From: Gryganskiella cystojenkinii
Taxonomy: Eukaryota; Mortierellomycota; Mortierellomycetes; Mortierellales; Mortierellaceae
Assembly: GCA_015852425.1 (NCBI GenBank)
Contig: JAAAIG010000023.1
Coordinates: 45,775 to 109,723 of the forward strand
Direction: 5' to 3'
Length of the DNA: 63,949 nt
Numbering within the stretch: the stretch's first letter is position 1; every line of letters begins with the position of its first letter. The notes under the pieces were generated by a model. That model was given only the letters and a program-made list of their open reading frames with translations, was not told where the DNA came from and did not search any database. Shown here piece after piece: positions 8,775 to 47,017 of the stretch. The position numbers and the translations under genes were made by a program.

Positions 8775-11700
8775 ATGGATTCAACCCAAAGACACACGCT
8801 TCAGGAGAGCGCCTTCCCCCAGGAAGATTTCGATAACGAAAAACTATATCGAATCGATTACCAAGATGATGAATCTTATTGCCCAGTCAAGGAAAGTAGG
8901 TTTTTAAGCGCGGTTTCTGCAGCCTCCGCCACAACAAACGCGTCCTTAAATTCTGATGACGGAAAACTCGTCAACATCCAGGTCGACACCAGTGGGGTAA
9001 CAAAGAGAACAAGAGTGAAATAGCAATGTGATAAGATCTATTGAAGCACTCGGTAACAGTTAACCTTTTTTATGTTACTTGGACACTTGGACCTGTCTAG
9101 ATCAACACGTTTGTAGACCAGTATGCCTCCTTTGCAATGACGATAATCTTGACTGGATTGTCAGCTTGGACACGATACAGAGATATCGTTGGAAATACTA
9201 ATGTATCTTGGGATGAGGTATGTGCCCTTTACACTATGATTTGCTTGTCAAAGTCTTATTCTCGAAAATCTATATAGCTGTTCTCCAACTAATGCCTTTC
9301 TTCTCTCTCGACTTGACTTTTCATCCGTTTTCCAGGCCCACTTTGGCAAGGTGAGTTTATACAACAAAGCAAAATTGACACCCATTCTTCAACGCGTCGG
9401 TCGATTTATTTTTACATTTAAAATAAAATGGGAGGATTGACATGTTTTCTTTTCTTCTCTCCCGCTCTATTGAAACACATTATTGGAAATTTGGGAACAT
9501 CGATCTTCTCCACAATAGTTTGGCTCGTTGTACATTAAGCGTTCTCATTACTTTGATGTCCACCCTCCTCTCGCCAAGATGTTGGTCGGTCTTTCAGGCG
9601 TCCTGGCAGGATACGATGGCTCGTTCGATTTCACCTCCGGGGCACCATACCCGGATATCAACTATCGATTCATGCGGCTCTTCAATGCGACCTTTGGCGT
9701 GGTTATGGTCCCGATCGCGTACTGGACCGCCCGTGAATTAAAGATGTCAAGGACAGGAGCAACATTGGCGGCGACCATGGTGCTGCTTGATAATGCATAT
9801 TTGACGATCAGTCGGTATATCCTCTTGGACTCTATGTTGTTATCCTCGACGTTTTTTGTTGTTCTCGCCTATGTCAAGTTCAAGAATGCGAGACGCGAGT
9901 AAGTTCAGACGATTCGATCCTATTCAAATCGAACTGATCCAATTTCTCAAGGAAATTTAGTAACGATTGAATGCTCTTGTATGTGTAGACCGTTCTCTGC
10001 CAGATGGTGGTTATGGTTGTCTCTGACCGGTCTTGGAATCGGCTGTGTCGCCAGTGTGAAGTGGGTCGGACTCTTCGCCACAGCTCTAGTCGGCCTCGTA
10101 AGTCGATTATGCTGCTTGTGTCAATACTTGTTATTCCATTCTTGATTTCTTCCAAAGGCATTGACCTCGTTTTTATGTTATATTTCTGTTTAGCATACGA
10201 TCGAAGAACTGTGGGATCTTCTTGGCGATCTCAAGCTATCGTGGACAAAATACATCACACATTGGATTGCCCGTATCCTCTTCCTGATCGCTCTACCTAT
10301 GGGCATCTATGTGGCCTGCTTTGTAGCCCACTTCAAGATTCTGACCAACACTGGATCAGGCGATGCCAATATGAACTCACTCTTTCAGGCGGGTCTAAAC
10401 GGAAGCACCTTAAAAGACAACCCTCTCGGTAAGAGTGTAAAATTTCCCAGTCTTTGTCGCCTGTTTTTTTAAAAAAAAAAATCAGTTGGCTTTTCATGCT
10501 TTTAACGCGATTTTTTTTTTATTGTGCGTCTGTAATCAACAGAGGTGGCTTTTGGATCCAAGGTGACGATCAAGAATAATGGTCACGGTGGAGGGCTCTT
10601 GCATTCTCATATCCAAACTTACCCTGAGGGGTCACTTCAACAACAAGTCACCTTGTATAGCCACAGGGACCATAACAACGAATTTGTGATTCAAAAAGGA
10701 CATGGAGAGGTGGAATCAGACACCATCGAGATTGTAAAGGATGGAGCTATTCTCCGACTCTTGCACAAATCAACTGGTCGACACCTTCATAGTCATCCGG
10801 TCCGAGCTCCGCTCACTCGAGATCAGTGGGAAGTTTCAGGGTATGGTAATCCTAATGAAGACGATGAAAATGATGACTGGATCCTGGAGACTGTCGATGA
10901 AAGAGCCCATAATCCACGAGATGGGACCCTGAGATCCTTGACGACGACGATTAGACTCCGTCATCGTGTCCTCGGTTGTCTACTGAGCGCAGAATCCAGC
11001 AAGCATTTACCTCCCTGGGGGTTCAGTCAAACGGAAGTCTATTGCGATCAACGGAACCAGACCTCGAGCGCATACTCAATCTGGAATGTGGAGGAACACT
11101 GGAACGATAAACGTAAGGGGGTTATTTCGTGTTTTTGACACTTTGTACTGTGACGAGTAGCACAATAATGCATCTCATATCAATTCATGTTTTTTTATGT
11201 TGTTGGCGATAGTCCCTAAGGGAGACGCAAGTCAGTACAAATCCAGTTTCTGGCGAAACTTTCTACATTTGAACGTGGCGATGTTGTTGGCGAACAATGG
11301 TCTGATCCCAGATCCAGACAAGCTGGATCAATTGGCTTCGTTACCCTCTCAATGGCCTCTTCTTGCCGTCGGGCTACGCATGGGCGGATGGAATGACAAT
11401 CAAACAAAGGTATATCTCCTTGGTAATCCGATCGTTTGGTGGTCTGGAACGCTTTCACTCTTGGTCTTTGCCGTGACTTGGATTTACTATTCGATCACCA
11501 GAGCTCGCGCCGAGGCCGCTGCCATTGCGGCCGAGAAGAAAGATAGGGAGGAGACGACAACGATATCGATCCAAAAAAAGTCTTCAGGGACCACCACTAT
11601 GACCACCTCTGTCACAACTTCCGCTGCCGATAGCATCATCTCCAGGGACGATTGGGTCGAGTTTCATTCCACGGGCAAGATCTTGATCGGTGGTTGGTTC

Positions 11701-12003
11701 TTACATTACATGCCATTCTGTGTGATGGGTCGTGTCACGTATTTGCATCATTACTTCCCAGCGCTCTACTTTACCATATTGCTCTGCACTTACCTGACGG
11801 ATCATTTCTTAAAACGACCGGGGACAAGACTCCAAACAAAAGTCCTGGTCTGGACAGTAGCCTTCGCAGCCGTAATCTCGACGTTCCTCTGGTTTGCGCC
11901 CCTGAGTTACGGGGTAAAAGGACCTATCGAGGCTATGAAAGGTCGTCATTGGCGATCGAGTTGGAATCTATTGGAACAACATAGCCATGCCAGCCGGTTT
12001 TAA
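8775..12003 (+). CDS. PMT2: Dolichyl-phosphate-mannose protein O-mannosyltransferase, PMT2 type
   Basis: Eight exons join in phase: 8775-8996, 9101-9217, 9336-9350, 9519-9898, 9989-10097, 10194-10428, 10543-11112, 11213-12003; 812 aa, close to the family norm. The enzyme transfers mannose from dolichyl-phosphate mannose to Ser/Thr of proteins entering the ER. The N-terminal PMT domain shows the acidic pair in SWDE followed by AHFGKFGS, then [13 protein letters not shown] and GYDGSFDF. A central MIR region carries [16 protein letters not shown] and QQQVTLYSH. The C-terminus has several membrane helices and [11 protein letters not shown]. The motif spelling suits the PMT2 subfamily better than PMT1 or PMT4. 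Exon 3 is only 15 nt and encodes AHFGK within the conserved loop. The start is the first ATG that follows the CT-rich leader. Confidence 0.93.
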
Positions 12004-12917: not shown

Positions 12918-15483
12918 ATGGTCAACGCCGAAACTTTCTCCGTCACCTCCCTGGACGGCAAGATTGTCTATCCTCAAGTCCGCCGAGTCGATACCACCCA
13001 CACTCAGCACGGCGTTACTGTTGCCGATCCTTACAGTTGGCTCGAAAATCTCGACTCGGAGGAGACAAAGTCATTTATCGAGGACCAGAACAAAATCTCT
13101 GCCGAGGTTATCGACAAATTTGAGGACAGGCAAAAATTCAGGGAGCGGTAAGGATGGTACTCGTTATTCATGTGAATTGCTTCATTGCCATCTGCCATCA
13201 TGATGAACAAAAACCAAATGAGAACATGTTGTTGAACTTGCACTCTTTTTCTGTGCCTCAGCTTGACTGAGCTCTTTGACTTTGAGCGTTTTGGCTCTCC
13301 TCGAAATCATGGCGATTACTACTACTACTTCCACAACTCAGGTCTGCAACCCCAAAATATCATTTACCAGCAGGATGTAATCGGGTCCGAACCGCGTGTT
13401 TTCTTGGATCCTAGCCTCTTGGAAGCTGATGGGACAGCCTCCCTGAAGACATACGAGTTCTCACGCTCGGGAGAGTTGTTCGCCTATGCCATTTCCAAGT
13501 CGGGATCAGACTGGAGCACGGTCTACCTCAAGGACTGTCATGGCAACAAGCTGGACGATGTCATTGAGTGGGTCAAGTTCACACAATTCGCTTTTACCCA
13601 TGATGACAAAGGTTTCTTCTACTCTGTAAGCTTTCGCTCTGTTTTTTTTTTTTTTTTTTTTGGTCAGTGGGTTTGCGACTAACTTCTTGTTCAAACACTC
13701 CAAAAGAGCTATGAGAGACCCAATGTCGACGCAGTAAAAGCAGGAACTGAGACTAGCGCCAACAGCAACCATCGATTGCTCTACCTCCGGATTGGTACGC
13801 CTCAATCTGAGGATGTCCTCGTCCACTGCGACACCGAGAACCCTTTGTACAGATTCACTCCCGAGATCTCGGACGACGGAAAGTATATCCTCATGACTAT
13901 CAGAAAGGGCAGCCTCACCTGCATGTTGTACGTCGGAGATCTTGACGCCACCGGAGGTGTTACTTCATCAGGTTACGACTGGAACAAGATTGTCGACAAC
14001 TTCGACGCTAAATATTTCTAGTAAGTAGCGCACCGTCCCATACCTTTGATGAACGCGTTGGGTTGTTGTTATGTTGTTGTTCGAAAGCCATACAGCGTGC
14101 CTATTAGATCTCTCTGACATTCATAATCTTGGGCCTTAGCCTGACCAACGACGGCACTGTCTTCTACTTTCGGACAAACAAAGATGCTCCCCGGAGCAGG
14201 ATTGTCAAATACGATTTGATCAAGCCCACGGAGGTAAAGGTGTTCTTCTCTTTCGTGGGATACATTTTTTGACTTGTACTTTTGCACAATCCACATGACG
14301 CTCACAAATCTTTTCCAATTACTGCAATTTGCAGGGGTTTGTCGACCTCGTACCTCAAGCTGAGGATGTGTTGGTCGGTGGTCTTGTCGTGGATGGCAAC
14401 AAGCTGGTTCTCAATTACATGCGTGATGTCAAAGATGTCCTCGCTTTGTATGATTTAACCACCGGGCAATTCGTCCACGAGATCCCTCTTCCCGTTGGTA
14501 CCGTCGCCAACATTATTGGAAACCGAGAGAGCAAGGAATTCTTTATCTTCTTCACATCCTTCCTCACTCCTGGTACCATCTACAGATACGACTTCAGCGT
14601 GGAGGATCAGGAACAGCGTTTGTCGATATTCCGTGAAGTCAAGGTCAAGGACTTTGACAACACCTTGTTCGAGACCAAGCAAATCTTCTACGAGAGTAAG
14701 GATGGAACCAAGATCCCCATGTTCGTCACTCACAGAAAGGACCTTGTCTTTGATGGCAACAACCCGACGTTTTTACATGGATATGGCGGTTTCTCGATGT
14801 CGGTCACGTCCAGTTGCACGATCGCCTACATTGTCTTCATGCAACACTTTGGAGGCGTGATCGCCATCGCCAACCTTCGCGGCGGTGGAGAGTACGGTCA
14901 GGAATGGCACCGCGCCGGCACCTTGTTGAACAAACAAAACGTCTTTGACGACTTCCAGTACGCTGCCAAATATCTAATTCGCGAAAAGTACACCCAACCC
15001 TCCAAGTTGGCCATCAACGGACAATCGAATGGTGGTCTTCTTGTCGCGGCCTGTGTCAACCAAACCCCCGAACTCTTTGGTGCCGCCGTGGCTGAGGTCG
15101 CCGGCCTGGATATGTTGCGATTCCACAAGTTCACCATTGGTCACGCTTGGCAATCCGAATACGGTTATCCAGATGACAACTCTGAGGACTTCCATAACCT
15201 TCTCAAGTACTCGCCCCTCCACAACATCCACAAGAACAAGCCGTACCCTGCCTTTGCTTTGTTCACCTCTGACCACGATGACCGCGTGGTTCCCCTACAC
15301 TCGTTCAAGCACATCGCAGAGCTGCAGCACACAGCCGGGCCTTTCACCAAGAACCCCCTTATTTTGCGAACCCAAACCAAGGCTGGACATGGAGCGGGAA
15401 AACCTCTTACAAAGCGTATAGAAGATACCACTGATAAATTCTCGTTTATTGCTGCCGCTCTCGGTGCGACCTGGAGAGATTAG
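12918..15483 (+). CDS. Prolyl oligopeptidase (S9A serine peptidase)
   Basis: Five exons (12918-13147, 13262-13625, 13707-14020, 14140-14233, 14335-15483) give 716 aa, essentially the length of animal prolyl oligopeptidase. The enzyme cuts short peptides after proline, usually in the cytosol; no signal peptide is seen. The N-terminal DPYSWLENLDSEETK and the propeller segment YYYYFHNSGLQ are family hallmarks. The C-terminal alpha/beta-hydrolase domain has the nucleophile in NGQSNGG (Ser565), the acid in SDHDDRV (about Asp649/650) and the base in KAGHGAGKP (His686). GGVIAIANLRGGGEYG is also present. All catalytic residues are intact, so an active enzyme is expected. An in-frame ATG 17 codons upstream is less likely as the start because family alignment begins near MVNAETF. 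Confidence 0.95.
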
Positions 15484-28525: not shown

Positions 28526-29781
28526 ATGAAGCTAGTGCTTAGTGCCATTGTTGCTACGGCAACGATCCTTGTTGTTGCTCAAACAAATAAAATCGCCAAG
28601 CGCCAAGCGCCTGTAGTGCACTGGGATGTAAGTCTTCCCATGAGTCGCTCCAATTTTTTTTCTTTGCCCTCTTTCCGCCAATGCTGCATATCATCCCGAC
28701 ACATCCTTTTCTCCAGATACTCATCCAGCAACGTTTACCTGAAAAATAATAAAACCTCCAATAGTATGGCGCAGATCCTGCTGGTGAGTCCCATTGGGGT
28801 CTCTTGGACCCCGCCTACATCACATGCGACAGCGGTTTACACCAATCTCCCATCGATATCAACAAAGCCGTGCTCGGCACGATTGTGACCTGCGCCAAGA
28901 CCGCCATGGTCTTCGATTACCAACCGATCAAGGGCTCGGTCGTTCATTGGAACGGACACGCCGTCGAGGTCGATTGGACGCCCAACGCCTTGACCCATAA
29001 CAACTCGATCACCATTGGCACCAAGAAATTCAACCTGATCCAGTTCCACTTCCATACCCCATCTGAACATCGTATCAATAACCGTCATGCGGATGCAGAA
29101 CTGCATCTCGTCCATCGTAATCCGGACGATAATGCGCTGGCGGTTATCGGTGTCCTGTTGCGCGCACGGCCAAACAATGTCCCGCTCTTCAGTTTCATCC
29201 CCCAGCTGAGCAAGAAGGTCCAAGCCGCGTTCTCATCCGATTCAGACGACATGATGCCGATGGAGGAGGAGGAGTCCGAGATCCCCTCTGACGTAGACGC
29301 ACAAAACAAGGAAGGGACGGACGACGATGAAGATGAAGATGAGGATGAGGGCGGTGCCGATTTCGAATCCCAAGAAATCGATTGGGATCAAGACGACTAC
29401 GAATCGACCCAACGACTTTTTGAGCGGTCCCAGACCCCAGAGGTCTCACCCAGTGGCATCGCAGATGACTTTACCACGGACAACAACGGTGGCAAGTCCG
29501 AGGACCTGATCTGTACTGGTGGACGGCCGACGAACGAGGGCGCTACATCGGTCGATCTCAAACTCAAGCCAGTCGATTTCGCACCGTTGTTGCGTGTCGT
29601 TGGCAAGTTCTCGCCTCGCTGGGAATACTCGGGCTCTCTCACGACCCCTCCTTGTTCCGAGAACGTGGCTTGGAACGTGATGCATAACGTATTTCCTATT
29701 GGATTGGATCAACTTCATGCCCTTGTTGACCTTCAGGGCTTCAACGCTCGCGATTTGCACCAGGATGCGCCAGTGGCCTAA
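28526..29781 (+). CDS. Secreted alpha-class carbonic anhydrase with acidic insert
   Basis: Two exons, 28526-28627 and 28765-29781, give 372 aa. The enzyme hydrates CO2 to bicarbonate. An N-terminal signal peptide (MKLVLSAIVATATILVVAQ) and a Lys-Arg site (AKRQ) imply secretion. The joined HWDYGADPAGESHWGLLDPAY matches the family's N-terminal region, confirming the acceptor at 28764; other acceptors break the frame. Zinc ligands are His129 and His131 in QFHFHTPSEH and His148 in AELHLVH; QSPIDI and the C-terminal SGSLTTPPCSENV are intact. Between these, residues about 190-300 form a very acidic Asp/Glu/Ser insert not normal for alpha carbonic anhydrases. The core motifs look complete, so activity is likely. 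No GPI-type tail is seen. Confidence 0.92.
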
Positions 29782-33645: not shown

Positions 33646-34947
33646 ATGGCACCCGAGCAAGAAAAGAAGGTAAAGTCCTTGGTCCTTACCATCGACACTC
33701 CCAGCAAAGGCCCCTTTGGTCTTCCTTTGATCACTGGAACGACCGAAGCCCCCGCTAAGATCAAGGGAACTGTCAGGTTCACGAGCAATTATGATTGCAA
33801 AGGTGGTGATATCACCATCCACTACACGGCCCAGGCTGAGGTCAAGTGGTCAAGTAAGTTCACCACTCTCTCTCTCTCTCTCTCACGCACACACACACAT
33901 ATACGCGCCTTCTCTATCTCTACTCGAACCCACCTTTGACACTCTTTCCGAAAAGTTTATGTGCAAACCAGACCCTAATCTCTCCTACATTTCTTTGGGT
34001 CGTTTCTCTAGAACGAAGCGGCAATACGACCTACAACTATCACGGTCGGCAGATGTTTGACGAGCGTTCGTTCCAGGTCAAGTTGGATCACCCAAAGGTC
34101 GGGACTGTCACCGCTGGAAACTATGTCTCTCCCTTTGAGATCCCCATCCACCCAGAGACACCTTGTTCTTCCAAGGGAACATATGGTTCCATGACCTACA
34201 AGATCAAGGCCATCCTCGTCCGTGGCTTCCCCTCCATTAACGTCGTTCATGAGCAAAGGATTTGGGTTATGACTTCTCTCCTTCCAAAACCTCAACGTCC
34301 TCTTGCCGAGACACCCGTGACGATGAGTCGATTCAATGGAACGCATGGCGCCAAGCTCCCTTACATTTGTGTGATCCCCTCCGAGGTCTTGTATCTCGGA
34401 CAACAAGTCCCCGTCACGTTCAAGGTCCAGGGTTCTGCCACAACGAGTCTCCAGGTCGTGAGCGCGATCGTCAAGCTGAAGCAGTATACGACACTGTCGG
34501 TCAAGACTGGACGAAAGTTCGATTCCAAGGACATCTTGAATGTGAGGGCCGATGACGGTTGGCCTCATGCTGTGATCGGTCAAGGATGGCAAAAAACCGT
34601 GGTGGTCTCGATCCCAGGTGCACCCCAGTTGACGCCCACCGTGATCTCGCCCATGATCGAGAAGACTCACAAGTTGAAGTTGATCATGCAAGTCAAGACT
34701 GCGGATGGTCGTGGACCCAGGGAACTGAGAGTTGAGAGTAAGTTATCTGATTTTTATATTGTTTTTTTTTTGCCTTTGCTCTACCTTTTGTTCTTCTTGT
34801 TGTTTGATATAGGACACTAATCACTATACCATTTGTTCATTCCTCTCGTAAATAGTGCCAGTAATCATGACCGCACCAAGACCCCCAACGGACCCATACC
34901 CTTACTTTGAAGTTCAAAGATACCTGGCTTGCCTGGACTCGATCTAG
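33646..34947 (+). CDS. Arrestin-domain protein 1
   Basis: Three exons, 33646-33853, 34012-34737 and 34856-34947, give 341 aa. Both introns are phase 1. The N-terminal half (SLVLTIDTPSKGPFGLPLITG, YDCKGGDITIHYTAQAEVKW) has the arrestin beta-sandwich pattern; the C-terminal half has LPYICVIPSEVLYLGQQVPVTF and PLTP-like segments ending VEMPVIM. Fungal arrestin-like proteins (ART family) usually adapt ubiquitin ligases to membrane cargo. No PPxY motif is obvious here, so ligase binding is unproven. The compact length makes this the simplest of three paralogues in the window. Intron 1 holds a CT/CA microsatellite. Confidence 0.85.
33866..33900. repeat. CT/CA microsatellite in arrestin 1 intron
   Basis: A (CT)n run followed by a (CA)n run, serving as part of the intron after the donor at 33854. 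Confidence 0.8.
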
Positions 34948-39864: not shown

Positions 39865-40745
39865 ATGGAGAACTATCACCGCAGACCAAAGACCTCAAAG
39901 TCAAAGTTCGAAGACGACGATGGCGGAGACCAACCATCAGCAGGAAAGAACAAGTCGAGCACCGGGATCAATCCTCACAATAAACCTCAACAACATGGCG
40001 TCATGGTCATCTCTCCTCACGGCAAGATTCGGTCCTATGTCACTCGTGCCCTAGAAGTCTTGACCGAGACTGACACTCCCGCACTAGAGACGTCTCAGCA
40101 GGTATGACAGAGGTGGTTTCTACTTTCCAGCATACCCCATAGTATCGAATTTGGCGACTAATATCTGTCATCATTACATGTTTGTTTGTTTTCTAGCCAA
40201 CATCAACACCAACAGAGTCCACAACATCATCATCATCAGCAGCAGTAGTAGTATCAAAACCACTCTCAGGGTCAGGGACAACGACATCATCACCGAGAGG
40301 CGTCCTGACCATCAAAGCCCAGGGGAAAAACGTAGCCAAGGCCGTGACAGTCGCCGAAATCTTGAAACGTCGCATGGGGGGTTCTTTGCATCAGTTCACA
40401 GAGATCGGTCAAATCTCTGAACAAGAGATCTGGGATCCCAACCCAGATCAACCCAACCTCGATCCTTTGACAGTCACCCGTCATCGTCCCACCATCCGGA
40501 TCCGACTTTCCAAGGAACTGAACGAGGCTTCTACTCTCACAAACAGTGCAGCTGGGCTGATGCAAAATATCCCCGGCGCCAGTATTCCAAGAGACGAGCA
40601 CGCAGACCCAGAAGATGAGGACGACGAGCAAGAGGATAAAGATTCACAATTAGAACGTTGGCCCGGTGCAATCTTGGATCGAGATGCGATCGCAAGACGG
40701 TTTGTGGGATACCAAGCACCAACAGGGAACGACATTTACTTGTAA
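39865..40745 (+). CDS. Alba-domain protein, Rpp25-like RNase P/MRP subunit
   Basis: Two exons, 39865-40101 and 40197-40745, give 261 aa. The Alba fold is visible as HGVMVISPHGKIRSYVTRALEVL, then after a low-complexity Ser/Thr insert at the splice join, GVLTIKAQGKNVAKAVTVAEILKRRMG and later PTIRIRLSKEL. This order matches eukaryotic Rpp25/Pop6-type Alba proteins, which bind RNase P and MRP RNA in the nucleus. The C-terminus is acidic (PEDEDDEQEDKD). The Ser/Thr insert lies between strand and helix units of the fold and is unusual but plausible as a loop. The ATG follows directly after a TATATATA tract. Confidence 0.82.
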
Positions 40746-41036: not shown

Positions 41037-44000
41037 TCACTTTCCGGGACTGCCATTCAGTCCATTCCGTTTTTGATACTCGGCCAAAGCAGACTCTGCA
41101 AAGCCCATCAACTCGTGCAGATGCAAATGGGTCCCGACAGGCCATATAATCTTTTGAATACTGGTGTTGTGAACCGTTCGCTCCACCAAGGTCGATCCAA
41201 TCTGATCCGGATGAATACACCACTTCCTGAACGAATCTGGAAACTGTTGACGAGCAGCATCCGGTGTGAACCAGTTTCGACAATCATCCATTCGCTTTTG
41301 AATCTGCGCCCAATCCTCGACGTTTTGGATCAAACGCGTCGCGATGTCTGTCGAGACTGGGACTGTCGAGCTTTCGCCACTTTCCCTGGATCCTGCTGAG
41401 GAAGCAGCCAGAGCTGCCGGTTCAAACTGTCCACTCTTGCGCATCTCCTTTCGAAGACTCGCCGTGTGATAACTATAGACCTTGAAACATACCAAGACCT
41501 CCATCAATGCGCTAATTTGTTTAGAGGAGAAAAATCGGATCAGTCTATACGTTCCTTAAGAGGTACAAGTATCGAATATCGAAATAACCAGATGACCAAG
41601 GTATTATTATATTACCTCAACCCATCCAGGCCAACCATCTTGTTGGTATGGCACTGGTTTGTAAGCGCATTAATGAACTGTCGCATGGTCTCCCATGAGG
41701 TGATCGATTCCTTGACAGCAATATCCGGTCGTCCCGGATTCGAGAGGTTGTGGTACTTGTCATTCGCATGGAAGGCAGCAATGAACTCGAGAGAACTCAG
41801 AAAGTATTGAATTGCACATAACTTTGGATCATTCTTCTTTTTGAAAATATCGTCCGCACTGTGCTTGAAAGCCACACCGTTCGCGCGTCGACTAATGGGT
41901 CCACAGGAGAATTGTTAGTGACGCTGTGGAAACATGTTGGAACAATAGCAAAGCATATGGAATCTGTAAAAGAAGAACGTACAGTCGGAAGGTGTTAAAG
42001 TACTGGGCAATCTTCTCGGCGACCTCGGGTGCTGGTGTGGGTTTGCCACTACCACTGCTACTACTCGTGCTGCTGCTGTTACTAACCGAGGGCTTTAGCT
42101 CGGTGGACTGCAATTTGGAGACAGTATCTTTGAAGATTACTGGTGATTTACTGTTGTCCAATGCCGGTGAATCCGATGCAGCCTTAGGAGTATCGACCTG
42201 GACCACTCTCGTGCGCTGATAATCCCCAATCGACATCCGTTTGACGACCGTGGCAGCATTCAGAGAACTACTCGAAGAGGAACGCGCGAGACCTTCCTGT
42301 GTTGATGAACGAGAGTCAGATGATGCGGCAGAGGTACCTGCGGTTGATGCCGCCATAGCTGTAGCAGCAGCAGGTTGTTCTTCCTTAATCAACTGGGAGG
42401 GTCGACGCAGCGCACTGGACGAAGCAGACGAAGACGGTCCATGCTTGCTCTCAGATTCACGGCGACCGCCCAAACTGCTCGACTTTGTAGAGTCCCCTTG
42501 TGCTGAACGAGCATTGACGGGACTAGCAGATCGATCTCTGCCTCGACGGTCCACATCCTTGCGACCAATTTCCTGACGTTCTCTGGATCTCGACCGGCGC
42601 TTCTTGTTATCCCGACTGAGGCTCCTGTCTCGACTGCGATCCCGGCTTCTATCACGGGCAAAGCGGTCCCGACTACGGGCCCGTCCACGATCGTTTCTCT
42701 CCCGACTGCTGTCCCTCTGTCGACCACTGCCATCTTGCTTGCGCCTCGACGACCGGTCATCATCATAATCTCTCCTGTCGCGAGTAGACTTTCCATCCCG
42801 CCCCAAGGGTGACCCACGATTCCGATCATAGCGACCTCTGGGGGATCGAGACCTTGAGCGACTGCGACTGCGACCACGAGCACGGTCCTTGTTGGTAGAG
42901 GTGGAGGGACGATCCTTGGCACTCGAGTTTCTGTTGGCAACGTCATCCCGGGATTCCTTCTCCGATCGAGGTTTGGTATCTTTTGCGCCCCCATCTCTGC
43001 CAGTGCGTCCTCTGGGAGACATTGGTGTGGCTGTGGATCCGTTGCGGTCGGCTTTGGGATCGATTTTGTTGTTGTTGCTGCTACTACTGCCGCCTCCTGT
43101 TGCACGATTGATTGGGACAGTTGCTGTTCCATCATCATCCTTCGAAACCCTGCGATCCTTTGCAGAGGCCGCAAGTGCAGTCCTGTCGGACTTGTCCTTG
43201 ATCTCACGGGCATAATCATCCTCCTTGACATTGCGCCGACCTTCGGCATACTGAGTACTGCGATCCCTCGAATCACTACGCTTCTTTGGATCGGCTTTCA
43301 TATCCTTGGATCCAGACTCAGTTCGGCTTCGACCCTCGGCCTGCGATCTCGAAGGCTTTGGTTCCTCAGAGCCCTCGCGACGTCGCCTTTTGATAGTCTC
43401 TTCCGCATCCGCTTCGTCTGTGCTATGGTAGGAGGGTCGTCGGTTCCTGTCCTTTCCGCGTTCAGAGACTGGTGAGAGTGACTGTGCATCCTTGGGACGA
43501 GCAGATACAGGCTTACTCGTGCTAACCACACCTTTATCGTTCTTGTCCGTAAACTTGGAGACGCCGACAGAGATGGAATTACTCGGTTTGATCAAGGCGC
43601 CGATAACAGGACTGTCCATGGGATACTTCTTTCTGGATTCTACCGGACTCTTGTTGGTGGTGATAGGACTCCTGGTTCTATTTGGACTATGCGCTCCCGA
43701 TTTTGAGTCCCTGTCCCTTGATCGCGCTCTGCCATTTCTCTTGTTTTCAGACCCTGAACTGTCAGGGGAAAAAGACCGGACACGCTTCGAGCGACTGTCT
43801 GTACTCCGTTTACCATCTGCCGGGCTGTTAGAAGACTGTTTCCGCTTGCCGAGAGGACTCTTGGGGCTGTTGGTTCCCAGAGCATGATCATCACGGTCAT
43901 CATCATCATGGTCTCGACGGCTCTTGTCCTTGATCTTTGCCTTTGACTTCTTTCTCTCGTCCGATCCTGAAAGTTCAGAAGAATACGACCGTGAGCGCTT

Positions 44001-47000
44001 CGAACGACTTTCAGAGTACCTCGAATCCAAAGGCTTTTTGGATCCATCCTTTGAAGAATACCGAGAAGATCCCTTGCGGTCCTTGTCAACATCATCGTCC
44101 GAAGAAGAATAGTGGTCATTTTTGGGACGTGAGGGTTTCGAGTTGATAGGTGGTCTGGTCTTGGGGCTGTCTCTCGAGGATTTCTCCCGAGAAGAACCGG
44201 ATTTAAGGAGAAGTGAGGGTATACAGATTTTAACCACGACGGGCGATCGGGACAGACCCACACTGGTAATCCTGCGAGCCATTTCTGCGACTTGTTTGGA
44301 GGAAAGGATACTGCAAAATTGTCCCACAGAGGTCTTTCGCGCCCTCGAATCCTTTGGTGACGGGCGGGAGGATGAATCCGGAACACCCTTTCCTGAGATT
44401 ACTCCTGCTGGTCGTTTGCCTGCTACAACCTCCGATTTTGAGTTCCGTCGCAGAGCCGTCTTTCGACTATTTGGGAGTAAAAGTCAAAAATAAGAAACGA
44501 AATAGGACCATTGTCAATACCAAAAAAGGCTCCAGAGAACCCATTTGTACCAGGAACGCATTTCCAAAATACTCCAAGAGTCCAACCAAGTGATCGTCAT
44601 CTTACCCAATGCTCTTCCTCTGTCGAGAGTTTCCGTCAACGTCACTGGCAGTGACGACTTCTGATTCGGCATCCGAAGAGTCGCTTACCGAACCCGAATC
44701 GGAACTGTCGTCACTGCTTGCGCCAATGTGAATTGGTACAATGGGTACCTTTCCTGGTTGCTTTCCTCCTGTGACACTCCTTGCTGGTGTTGGCCATGGT
44801 GGGAGCGTTGGACTTGGCATCGGTGGGAGTTCTTCAATCATCTGTTGAGGGAGGAAGTAAAAAAATGCACGATGCGGCAAAATGAAAAAGGTGTTAGAAA
44901 GGCGAAAGCTTATCTCAATTTGTGCACATGTCAGGGAGGGTAGGGATTCGACCCAGATGGTGAAACAGCAGTAAATGAGAAAGATATGCCCATGAACATA
45001 CGTCGATAACCTTGCGAATCTCGTCCAAAGGAGGCGTAGGTGGGCTCTGAGAATTCCAGGTACAATAAAAAGAAGGAAAGAACGATTGTGGGTCAGTTTG
45101 TTGATTTCCAGTATCCAGGAGGGGGACAATCAGTTTCTCTGTTGTTGGTTCGCAAGGTTGAACAAGGCAGTCTTTACATGATGAAAGTGAGGACGGATAT
45201 TGCCGTTCGGATGCGAGCTTGTCACTGGTGTTCCCTTTTCACGACTACAAGGGAGAAGGGGATGAAGGAGAAGATAAAGAAAAAAGAGTAAAGACATTTG
45301 TCAGTAACAGAAATAGGTTACAAAGAAGCAGTAGAGGACGGGGGGTGGTGCAATCGAGAGACGACTTTGTCATCTCCTCTCTTCCTTTCCGCGTGGGGGA
45401 GCCTTTTTTGTTTGTTTGTGTTCAGCCTTTTTCTAGACCACTCGCGCTGCTTCCTTTTCCATCCCCACAGACGATTGATCACAAAATCCAAGGTGGGACC
45501 AAAATTTTCGTTCAGTCTTTCATCCATCCTTCCTCGAAGAAAATGCCTCTGATGTTCTGCTCGATGGTGGGCCTCGTCTATCGAATGGCACTCTGCAAAT
45601 CCTCATTCCTAAGGTCGTGCCCCGTGGAGATTGAACAATGGTGTGGAGAACATTTGATTTGCCCTGGAAAAAAGGGGGCATAATCAATTGAATGGAGGAA
45701 AATATGGAAGAGTGGAAATAGTCTTATCCAGGGCTATGTTGAGGTGTGCACAGTACATACTCTTCTCTCCCTTCCATCACGGTCTGGGCCAACATTACAC
45801 ACAAAAAACAAAGGTGTCCAAAAGGTGGTTCAAAAAGCAAGGCTTAGAGAAAGGAAAAATACAAACCCACGGCAACAGCTCTTTTTGTTTCCCTCGGTCA
45901 TCAACAAATCCGTGCCCGTCCACTTTGCTTGCCTGGGGGTTTTTTTACCCTTCAATTCAACTACGAGTATTCAATGCCACATGCCATCCAAAACAGACAA
46001 AGACGCTCGCGCCCTTGGTCTACCGGTCCGCCGCTGCTCCATCGTCAGTGTTTTTTTTTTCTCTTGCATAAACCTTTTCTTCAGATCCTCCGCGCAGTTC
46101 ATAAGTTCGGTCTGTCATCGGCTGCTCAAAAAAGCCAGCCCACGTAACCCCAACCCCAAGTTGCCATCACCAATCCTGGGAGGAACCCTCTCTCTTCTTT
46201 AATTTTGGCGAGGCGTCCAATGTACCCATCATCCGAATGCTCTGTCCGTAGTAAAGTCGTACTCTTTGAGCTGTGGCAAGTCCTCTTTATCTTTATCCGA
46301 AATATCAATAGCTCAGAAAGATGTTGGCCCTTCCGTTTGTTTGATTTCTCACGCTGCCTGGGCCCTCACAAGAAGAAAAAATAGGATGAATCCCATCCTG
46401 GACTACACTCAGCCTGCTTGGAGGGTGACAACAAAACGGAGATCCAGCCAGATCAACGACCATGAACTGAACTAAACTGACTATGGTTGCCAACCTCCTC
46501 CCACTTCCCTTCCCTCTCTCGATCTTCTTTTGATATCGAGATTCACCGCTCGCTATTCTCTTGCGAGTCGTCTTGAATAGGTTCCCAAAATATGATTTGA
46601 CCTTTTGAAAACTTACCCCGACATGTGTGGGATTTGCATCCCTGCTGCCCAGCCGGTAATGGTGGGAGGACAGGTCGGTACCACCCAATCAAACTTGTTA
46701 TGAGCGCCTCCTGCTCCAATATTCGGTGATCGGTCCCTGAGAGGCCTATCTTTTAAGCCCCAGAGTCGAGGATTGAACGTCAGGTATTCGATACAGCCAT
46801 GCATGGGTTCTGGTCCATGGTGTCCACCGCCAGCGGTCCAGTTCTTTTTAAACTCGAGAATCTTTTGATCGATATCGTCGTGTAGATGACCAGAGAGGTG
46901 TTGATGATGGGTCGAAGTTGGGGTGTTGAGGGAACTGGCAGTCGAGGAAGAAGCCATGATAGAGTTGGGACTTGGGATAGAGGGGCTGGGCGTGGCCTCC

Positions 47001-47017
47001 TGGTCTTTTCTGCTCAT
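41037..47017 (-). CDS. AF4/FMR2 (AFF)-like elongation scaffold
   Basis: Seven exons (47017-46617, 45244-45178, 45046-45002, 44841-44606, 44466-41983, 41891-41616, 41511-41037) give 1327 aa, every join in phase. The N-terminal region is Ser/Pro-rich; residues about 172-250 include ELPPMPSPTLPPWPTP and a Ser/Asp tract. A hydrophobic motif VVVKICIPSLLLKSG (about 326-340) recalls the AFF motif near its Ser tract. The middle (about 780-900) is an Arg-Ser/Arg-Asp repeat. The C-terminal 260 residues are helical: KHSADDIFKKK, YFLSSLEFIAAFHAND, RLIQNVEDWAQIQ and HLHELMGFAESAL, in the order of the AFF C-terminal homology domain. AFF proteins scaffold the super elongation complex. The join of exon 1 across a 1.37-kb intron is the weakest part; 46617-47017 could be a separate gene. 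Confidence 0.68.

Follow-up and report, generated by a model that had tools for sequence, protein, structure and literature searches.

The 63,949-nucleotide window analyzed here, a stretch of a 35-Mb genome assembly of the fungus Gryganskiella cystojenkinii (contig C254; coordinates are window positions), carries at 41037..47017 on the minus strand a seven-exon gene. We read this gene, with a probability of about 0.7, as the Mortierellaceae equivalent of the AFF scaffold of metazoans: a flexible nuclear platform with a VKI docking motif, a C-terminal homology domain (CHD) and an Arg-Ser/Arg-Asp (RS/RD) block for contacts. AFF proteins are scaffolds of the super elongation complex, which helps RNA polymerase II keep transcribing and has been studied mainly in animals, owing to leukaemia fusions and human immunodeficiency virus. 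AFF homology and its fusion to an RS/RD block are both supported, because AFF4 was the best PDB match for two structure models and because the locus reads as one gene. All comparisons were made with AFF4; the mention of AFF1 comes from the literature.

When the final 268 residues of the predicted protein were used as a query, a protein search returned 13 relatives (E 1e-108 to 1e-67, identity 46–65%), and a second search with a fungal alignment returned 10 more. Two structure models of these relatives, built from disjoint sequence sets, both had AFF4 as their best match in the PDB. All three AFF4 CHD entries occupied the top ranks with either model, leading the highest-scoring non-AFF4 chain by 4.5 to 5.6 Z units, and the fungal domain was about 16% identical to AFF4 in the structural alignment. 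An earlier sequence-only reading of this DNA had assigned the end of the protein to the AFF CHD and had staked that claim on a fold match; AFF4 ranking first for two models supports it, and the C-terminal domain is likely to be homologous to the AFF CHD. The strings quoted in that reading (KHSADDI, SSLEFIAAFHAND, RLIQNVEDW, HELMGFAESAL and VVVKICIPSLLL) are all present in the translation. In the alignment of the query and its relatives, the mean column identity of the domain was 69–88% per 25 residues outside the loop. Helix 1 contains K[HR]xAD in 23/23 fungal domains (the query and P0001–P0022), and the form KHNAD is found both in AFF4 and in ten of the fungal domains. Just before the handle helix, the same alignment of 23 domains and AFF4 shows VTI in AFF4 and [VIA]x[IV] in the fungi. 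Of the fungal set, P0018, a JGI protein, comes closest by eye to AFF4 in helix 1 (QEAINLKHVAD). The structural report on the AFF4 CHD (PMC7026398) describes a helical ring whose handle consists of helix 5 together with the beginning of helix 6, and a dimer with F1014 and Y1096 at its centre. The fungal domains have Tyr (16) or His (7) at the position of F1014, and Leu, Met, Val or Tyr in 23/23 at that of Y1096; because identity is so low in this alignment, these residues neither prove nor exclude an AFF4-type dimer.

Tests at the sequence level gave negative or marginal results for AFF, and the Foldseek TM-scores to AFF4 were moderate (0.43–0.63). Pfam scans of the domain (the query; 10 members; 10 other relatives; 11 members) gave sub-threshold families only, none of them AFF. 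The Pfam models of the AFF family, AF-4 (PF05110) and AFF4_CHD (PF18876), do not recognize the fungal sequence, and profile searches of PDB sequences with the fungal domain gave no match. The sequence link to AFF was marginal: hhalign of 11 domains from the fungi against four AFF4 domains from vertebrates was collinear over the domain (score 23.2, probability 2.9%, P 0.015), and 2/300 column-shuffled and 1/300 block-shuffled AFF4 alignments scored at least as well, up to 32.7. The AFF side of this comparison consisted of AFF4 alone, drawn from the best 120 of 1,012 matches, 93–100% identical to human AFF4. In addition, a Pfam scan of the full protein of 1,327 amino acids (aa) gave 0 families up to E 10, and a short-motif search of the PDB gave 0 matches. 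Thus, of the hidden Markov model or structure search that had been proposed as a check on the domain, the structure part ranked AFF4 first and the profile part yielded no AFF family. Since the AFF family models fail to recognize the protein, strict AFF family membership is not claimed.

Upstream of the domain lies a short motif that resembles the VKI segment of AFF4, the type bound by the AHD (ET) domain of AF9/ENL:

44205..44240, minus strand: VVVKICIPSLLL, ET/AHD-binding-like motif, residues 326–337 (pattern in 20/24 family sequences)

The pattern [VILMA][VILMA][VI][KR]Ix[ILV] occurs once each in these 20 of the 24 sequences (the query and 23 relatives); it is missing from the short proteins or fragments P0014, P0018 and P0023, and from P0006, as its annotated protein does not include this region. 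AFF4 contains the pattern once, as PLIVKIDLNLL from residue 713, and this segment was the only AFF4 match of a profile of the fungal VKI region, but 61/1,000 decoys scored as high. According to PMC7442819, the ET domain of Taf14 binds a hydrophobic-x-hydrophobic-plus-hydrophobic-plus-hydrophobic segment, a mode compared there with the AF9 ET–AF4 complex. The fungal VKI motif is of the same hydrophobic-x-hydrophobic-plus-hydrophobic type, bound by YEATS-associated ET domains, as in the Taf14-binding coactivators Sth1, Snf5, Ino80, Taf2, Sas3 and Tfg1 (PMC7442819), but where the yeast consensus has its second basic residue, the fungal motif carries N, T, R, C or V and AFF4 carries D. An acidic Ser tract (residues 212–232) stands before the motif and Ser/Arg-rich sequence after it; AFF4 (P0028) likewise has a long Ser/Asp tract before its VKI motif. 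The sequence-only reading had placed the motif ahead of a Ser tract, as in AFF proteins: the motif is present, but the order has to be inverted, because the Ser tract precedes VKI in AFF4 and in the fungal protein alike.

A common fold does not show function, and the domain might instead belong to another branch of a broader eukaryotic THD-type family that shares the AFF fold, for example one nearer to the plant CW-zinc-finger THD proteins, with no role in elongation. Pfam has a separate family of this kind, THD_CWZF3-5-7 (PF24756), which P0018, the only fungal protein seen to do so, touched below threshold (E 0.15, 12.1 bits against a curated cut-off of 27; E 0.13 in a scan of 11 members, where it was 1/11); judging from the Pfam name and the P0018 match, the plant helical domain is possibly related. 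The marginal sequence link to AFF also favors this explanation. Nevertheless, the full-length fungal protein contains no Pfam family and hence, unlike the plant proteins, no zinc finger, and its VKI motif and linear order also resemble those of AFF4. We therefore regard membership of another THD branch as improbable, though it is the strongest competitor of the AFF-type scaffold.

The second distinctive part of the protein is its RS/RD block:

42516..42890, minus strand: Arg-Ser/Arg-Asp block, residues 776–900 (dipeptide count against shuffles)

The block contains 50 RS/SR/RD/DR/RE/ER dipeptides, whereas 2,000 shuffles of the block itself gave 30.3 ± 4.1 and never more than 44, so that the long block described from the sequence was borne out. 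At least 22 RS/SR per 125-aa window were found in 16/23 relatives, 7–14 in P0001, P0006, P0007 and P0016, and 0–3 in P0014, P0018 and P0023; column identity in the block was 62–86% per 25 residues in the alignment of the query and its relatives. No such block was seen by eye in the AFF4 sequence. The annotations of P0001, P0006 and P0007 seem by eye to run through the block in another frame, with fewer RS pairs, and are perhaps gene-model errors; when this was examined by BLAST with a single alternate reading frame of the window as the target, no match was obtained. The block may plausibly link elongation to RNA processing. One could go further and regard the product as an SR-type RNA-processing protein, in which the RS/RD block does the work and the C-terminal domain is a generic helical dimerizer. 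The excess of RS pairs over the block's own composition and their recurrence among the relatives agree with this proposal. However, SR proteins combine an RRM with an RS domain, and neither an RRM nor any other Pfam domain was found in the 1,327-aa protein; moreover, the conservation of the C-terminal domain would be unexpected for a passive tail, and its fold match to AFF4 lies well above other helical chains. An SR-type protein is accordingly unlikely.

The gene model behind the AFF-type reading is as follows:

41037..47017, minus strand: whole coding locus, seven exons, 1,327 aa (stop-free joined frame, six GT-AG introns, Mortierellaceae conservation)
46617..47017, minus strand: exon 1, N-terminal conserved module SPSIPSPNS ... 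EYLTFNPR ... SGWAAG
45178..45244, minus strand: exon 2, from the joined frame
45002..45046, minus strand: exon 3, contains SPPTPPLDEIRKVID
44606..44841, minus strand: exon 4, conserved LPxxxSPTxPxW...GGKQPGKVP segment and acidic Ser tract (44659-44721)
41983..44466, minus strand: exon 5, ET-binding-like motif, RS/RD block, Ser-rich linker and start of helix 1 of the C-terminal domain
41616..41891, minus strand: exon 6, AFF-type C-terminal domain, predicted to hold most of helix 1, then helices 2 and 3 and the first part of helix 4 (model of orthologue P0007)
41852-41866, minus strand: KHSAD, within exon 6
41037..41511, minus strand: exon 7, predicted to hold the rest of helix 4, a variable loop, a handle-like helix and the C-terminal helix (model of orthologue P0007)

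The seven exons join into one open frame that stops at 41037, and all six introns have the form GT...AG. The N-terminal module was matched in annotated proteins of Podila, Actinomortierella, Mortierella alpina and Dissophora, the Actinomortierella start being longer, and continuous homology crossed the exon joins in a whole-length alignment of the query and the first 13 relatives, joins 1/2 and 2/3 being the least well supported. Because relatives carry the matching module and homology spans the joins, the locus is taken as one gene, and the seven-exon structure first drawn from the sequence holds. An artefact, in which the joined exons come from unrelated genes or generic helical-repeat similarity accounts for the fold match, is very improbable: the moderate TM-scores would fit it, but five annotated relatives (P0009–P0013, 1,241–1,342 aa) carry both termini within one protein, and two independent models set AFF4 well apart from any other chain.

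As a whole, the protein resembles AFF4 in its predicted CHD/THD fold, in K[HR]xAD of helix 1, in the VKI motif of ET-binding type, in the acidic Ser tract before it and in being a long, disordered chain of about the same size (1,163 aa in AFF4 and 1,327 aa in the fungus). It differs from AFF4 in its shorter Ser loop and added RS/RD block, and in that no P-TEFb-binding N-terminus or ELLBow was recognizable by profile comparison. A profile of the fungal N-terminus found no match at the AFF4 P-TEFb segment; its best AFF4 score was −0.8, at residues 1062–1090, and 296/1,000 decoys scored as high. The segment PPLEEIRK...MSPTIPxW, which looked like ELLBow by eye, was not supported as such: its profile had no match on the AFF4 ELLBow and a best AFF4 score of −5.6, while 287/500 decoys gave a match, and 274 of these equalled or exceeded the AFF4 score.

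YEATS matches were detected at four places in the source genome. Downstream of one of them (G000:C149:46006-46353; L006, L008), a stretch read across one intron matched the yeast Taf14 ET domain (E 6.5e-8), which makes this Taf14-like YEATS protein a candidate partner that may bind the VKI motif. An AHD match (L009, E 0.040) was rejected as AF9, its open reading frame (ORF) being of low complexity with a zinc-finger-like stretch and by eye not AF9. An Occludin_ELL match (L020, E 0.055) was likewise rejected as ELL; by eye the ORF is a glutamine-rich coiled coil, and controls were positive in 5/14 genomes. Models of ELL and EAF gave no match in the source genome and were uninformative, as no control gave a match either; a search of the same genome for plant THD gave no match, which proves nothing. 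These empty searches show little, because the AFF4_CHD model also misses the gene under study.

A scaffold role in elongation, like that of AFF proteins, is our best inference and is probably correct. The protein would be a flexible, mostly disordered nuclear platform whose VKI motif would pair, as an added β-strand, with the ET (AHD) domain of the Taf14-like YEATS protein, in the manner of AF4 and AF9. The C-terminal domain would dock other subunits or hold two copies together, and the disordered RS/RD part could bind RNA or phospho-proteins weakly in the vicinity of elongating RNA polymerase II. The results suggest that an AFF-type scaffold is older than animals. A fuller history is tentative and rather doubtful: a scaffold with an ET-docking motif and a CHD, present in the fungus–animal ancestor, may have been duplicated and fused to RS/RD sequence in Mortierellaceae, yielding a Taf14-linked, splicing-coupled platform without the metazoan P-TEFb and ELL handles. 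If the AFF-type reading is true, a second fungal lineage with such a scaffold would date it before the fungus–animal split, and the CHD and the YEATS-ET docking motif would be old parts, others perhaps being animal additions; the fungus would also offer a simple system for testing what the CHD does, which is incompletely explained. A fungal AFF-like protein has been proposed earlier, namely Ebp1 of S. pombe, an Ell1-binding protein reportedly described as distantly AFF-related, and the novelty of the present gene is lowered by it. Among the titles and abstract starts listed by searches of open-licence papers, none dealt with a fungal AFF protein, nor did the conservation in Mortierellaceae, the ET-docking-type motif or the RS fusion turn up there.

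The 21 of the 23 relatives with names belong to nine genera, all Mortierellaceae. Neither protein search reached relatives outside this family, but the search needs shared five-residue words, so absence elsewhere does not follow. Among the query and the first 13 relatives, the conserved regions were the N-terminal module, the SPTxPxW segment, the VKI region, the RS block and the C-terminal domain. The exon 1 module was covered in the query and 5/13 relatives, and residues 8–131 of the paralogue P0016 also match it. Residues 1–135 and 157–204 (exons 1, 3 and 4) hold the conserved segments EYxTFxPR...SGWAAG and PPLEEIRK...MSPTIPxW...GGKQPGKVP, and the rest of the chain looks disordered. Two groups of AFF-like protein are apparent in Mortierellaceae, P0001–P0014 and a second one (P0015–P0017 and P0019–P0022) whose members are 836–911 aa long, 38–43% identical to the query, and keep the VKI and SPTxPxW segments. 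Both groups are represented in Modicella reniformis, by the fragment P0014 and by P0021. In the source genome, a search with P0016 returned five pieces, all inside the window's own locus, so that only the longer-group copy was found.

Elsewhere in the window, an Alba-domain ORF (40197-40745, plus strand; E 1.8e-10) lies tail to tail with the AFF-like gene, about 290 bases away. Four further plus-strand ORFs have MIR and PMT_4TMC domains (protein O-mannosyltransferase, 10536-12003), a prolyl oligopeptidase domain (14299-15483), a carbonic anhydrase domain (28765-29781) and an arrestin domain (33858-34820).
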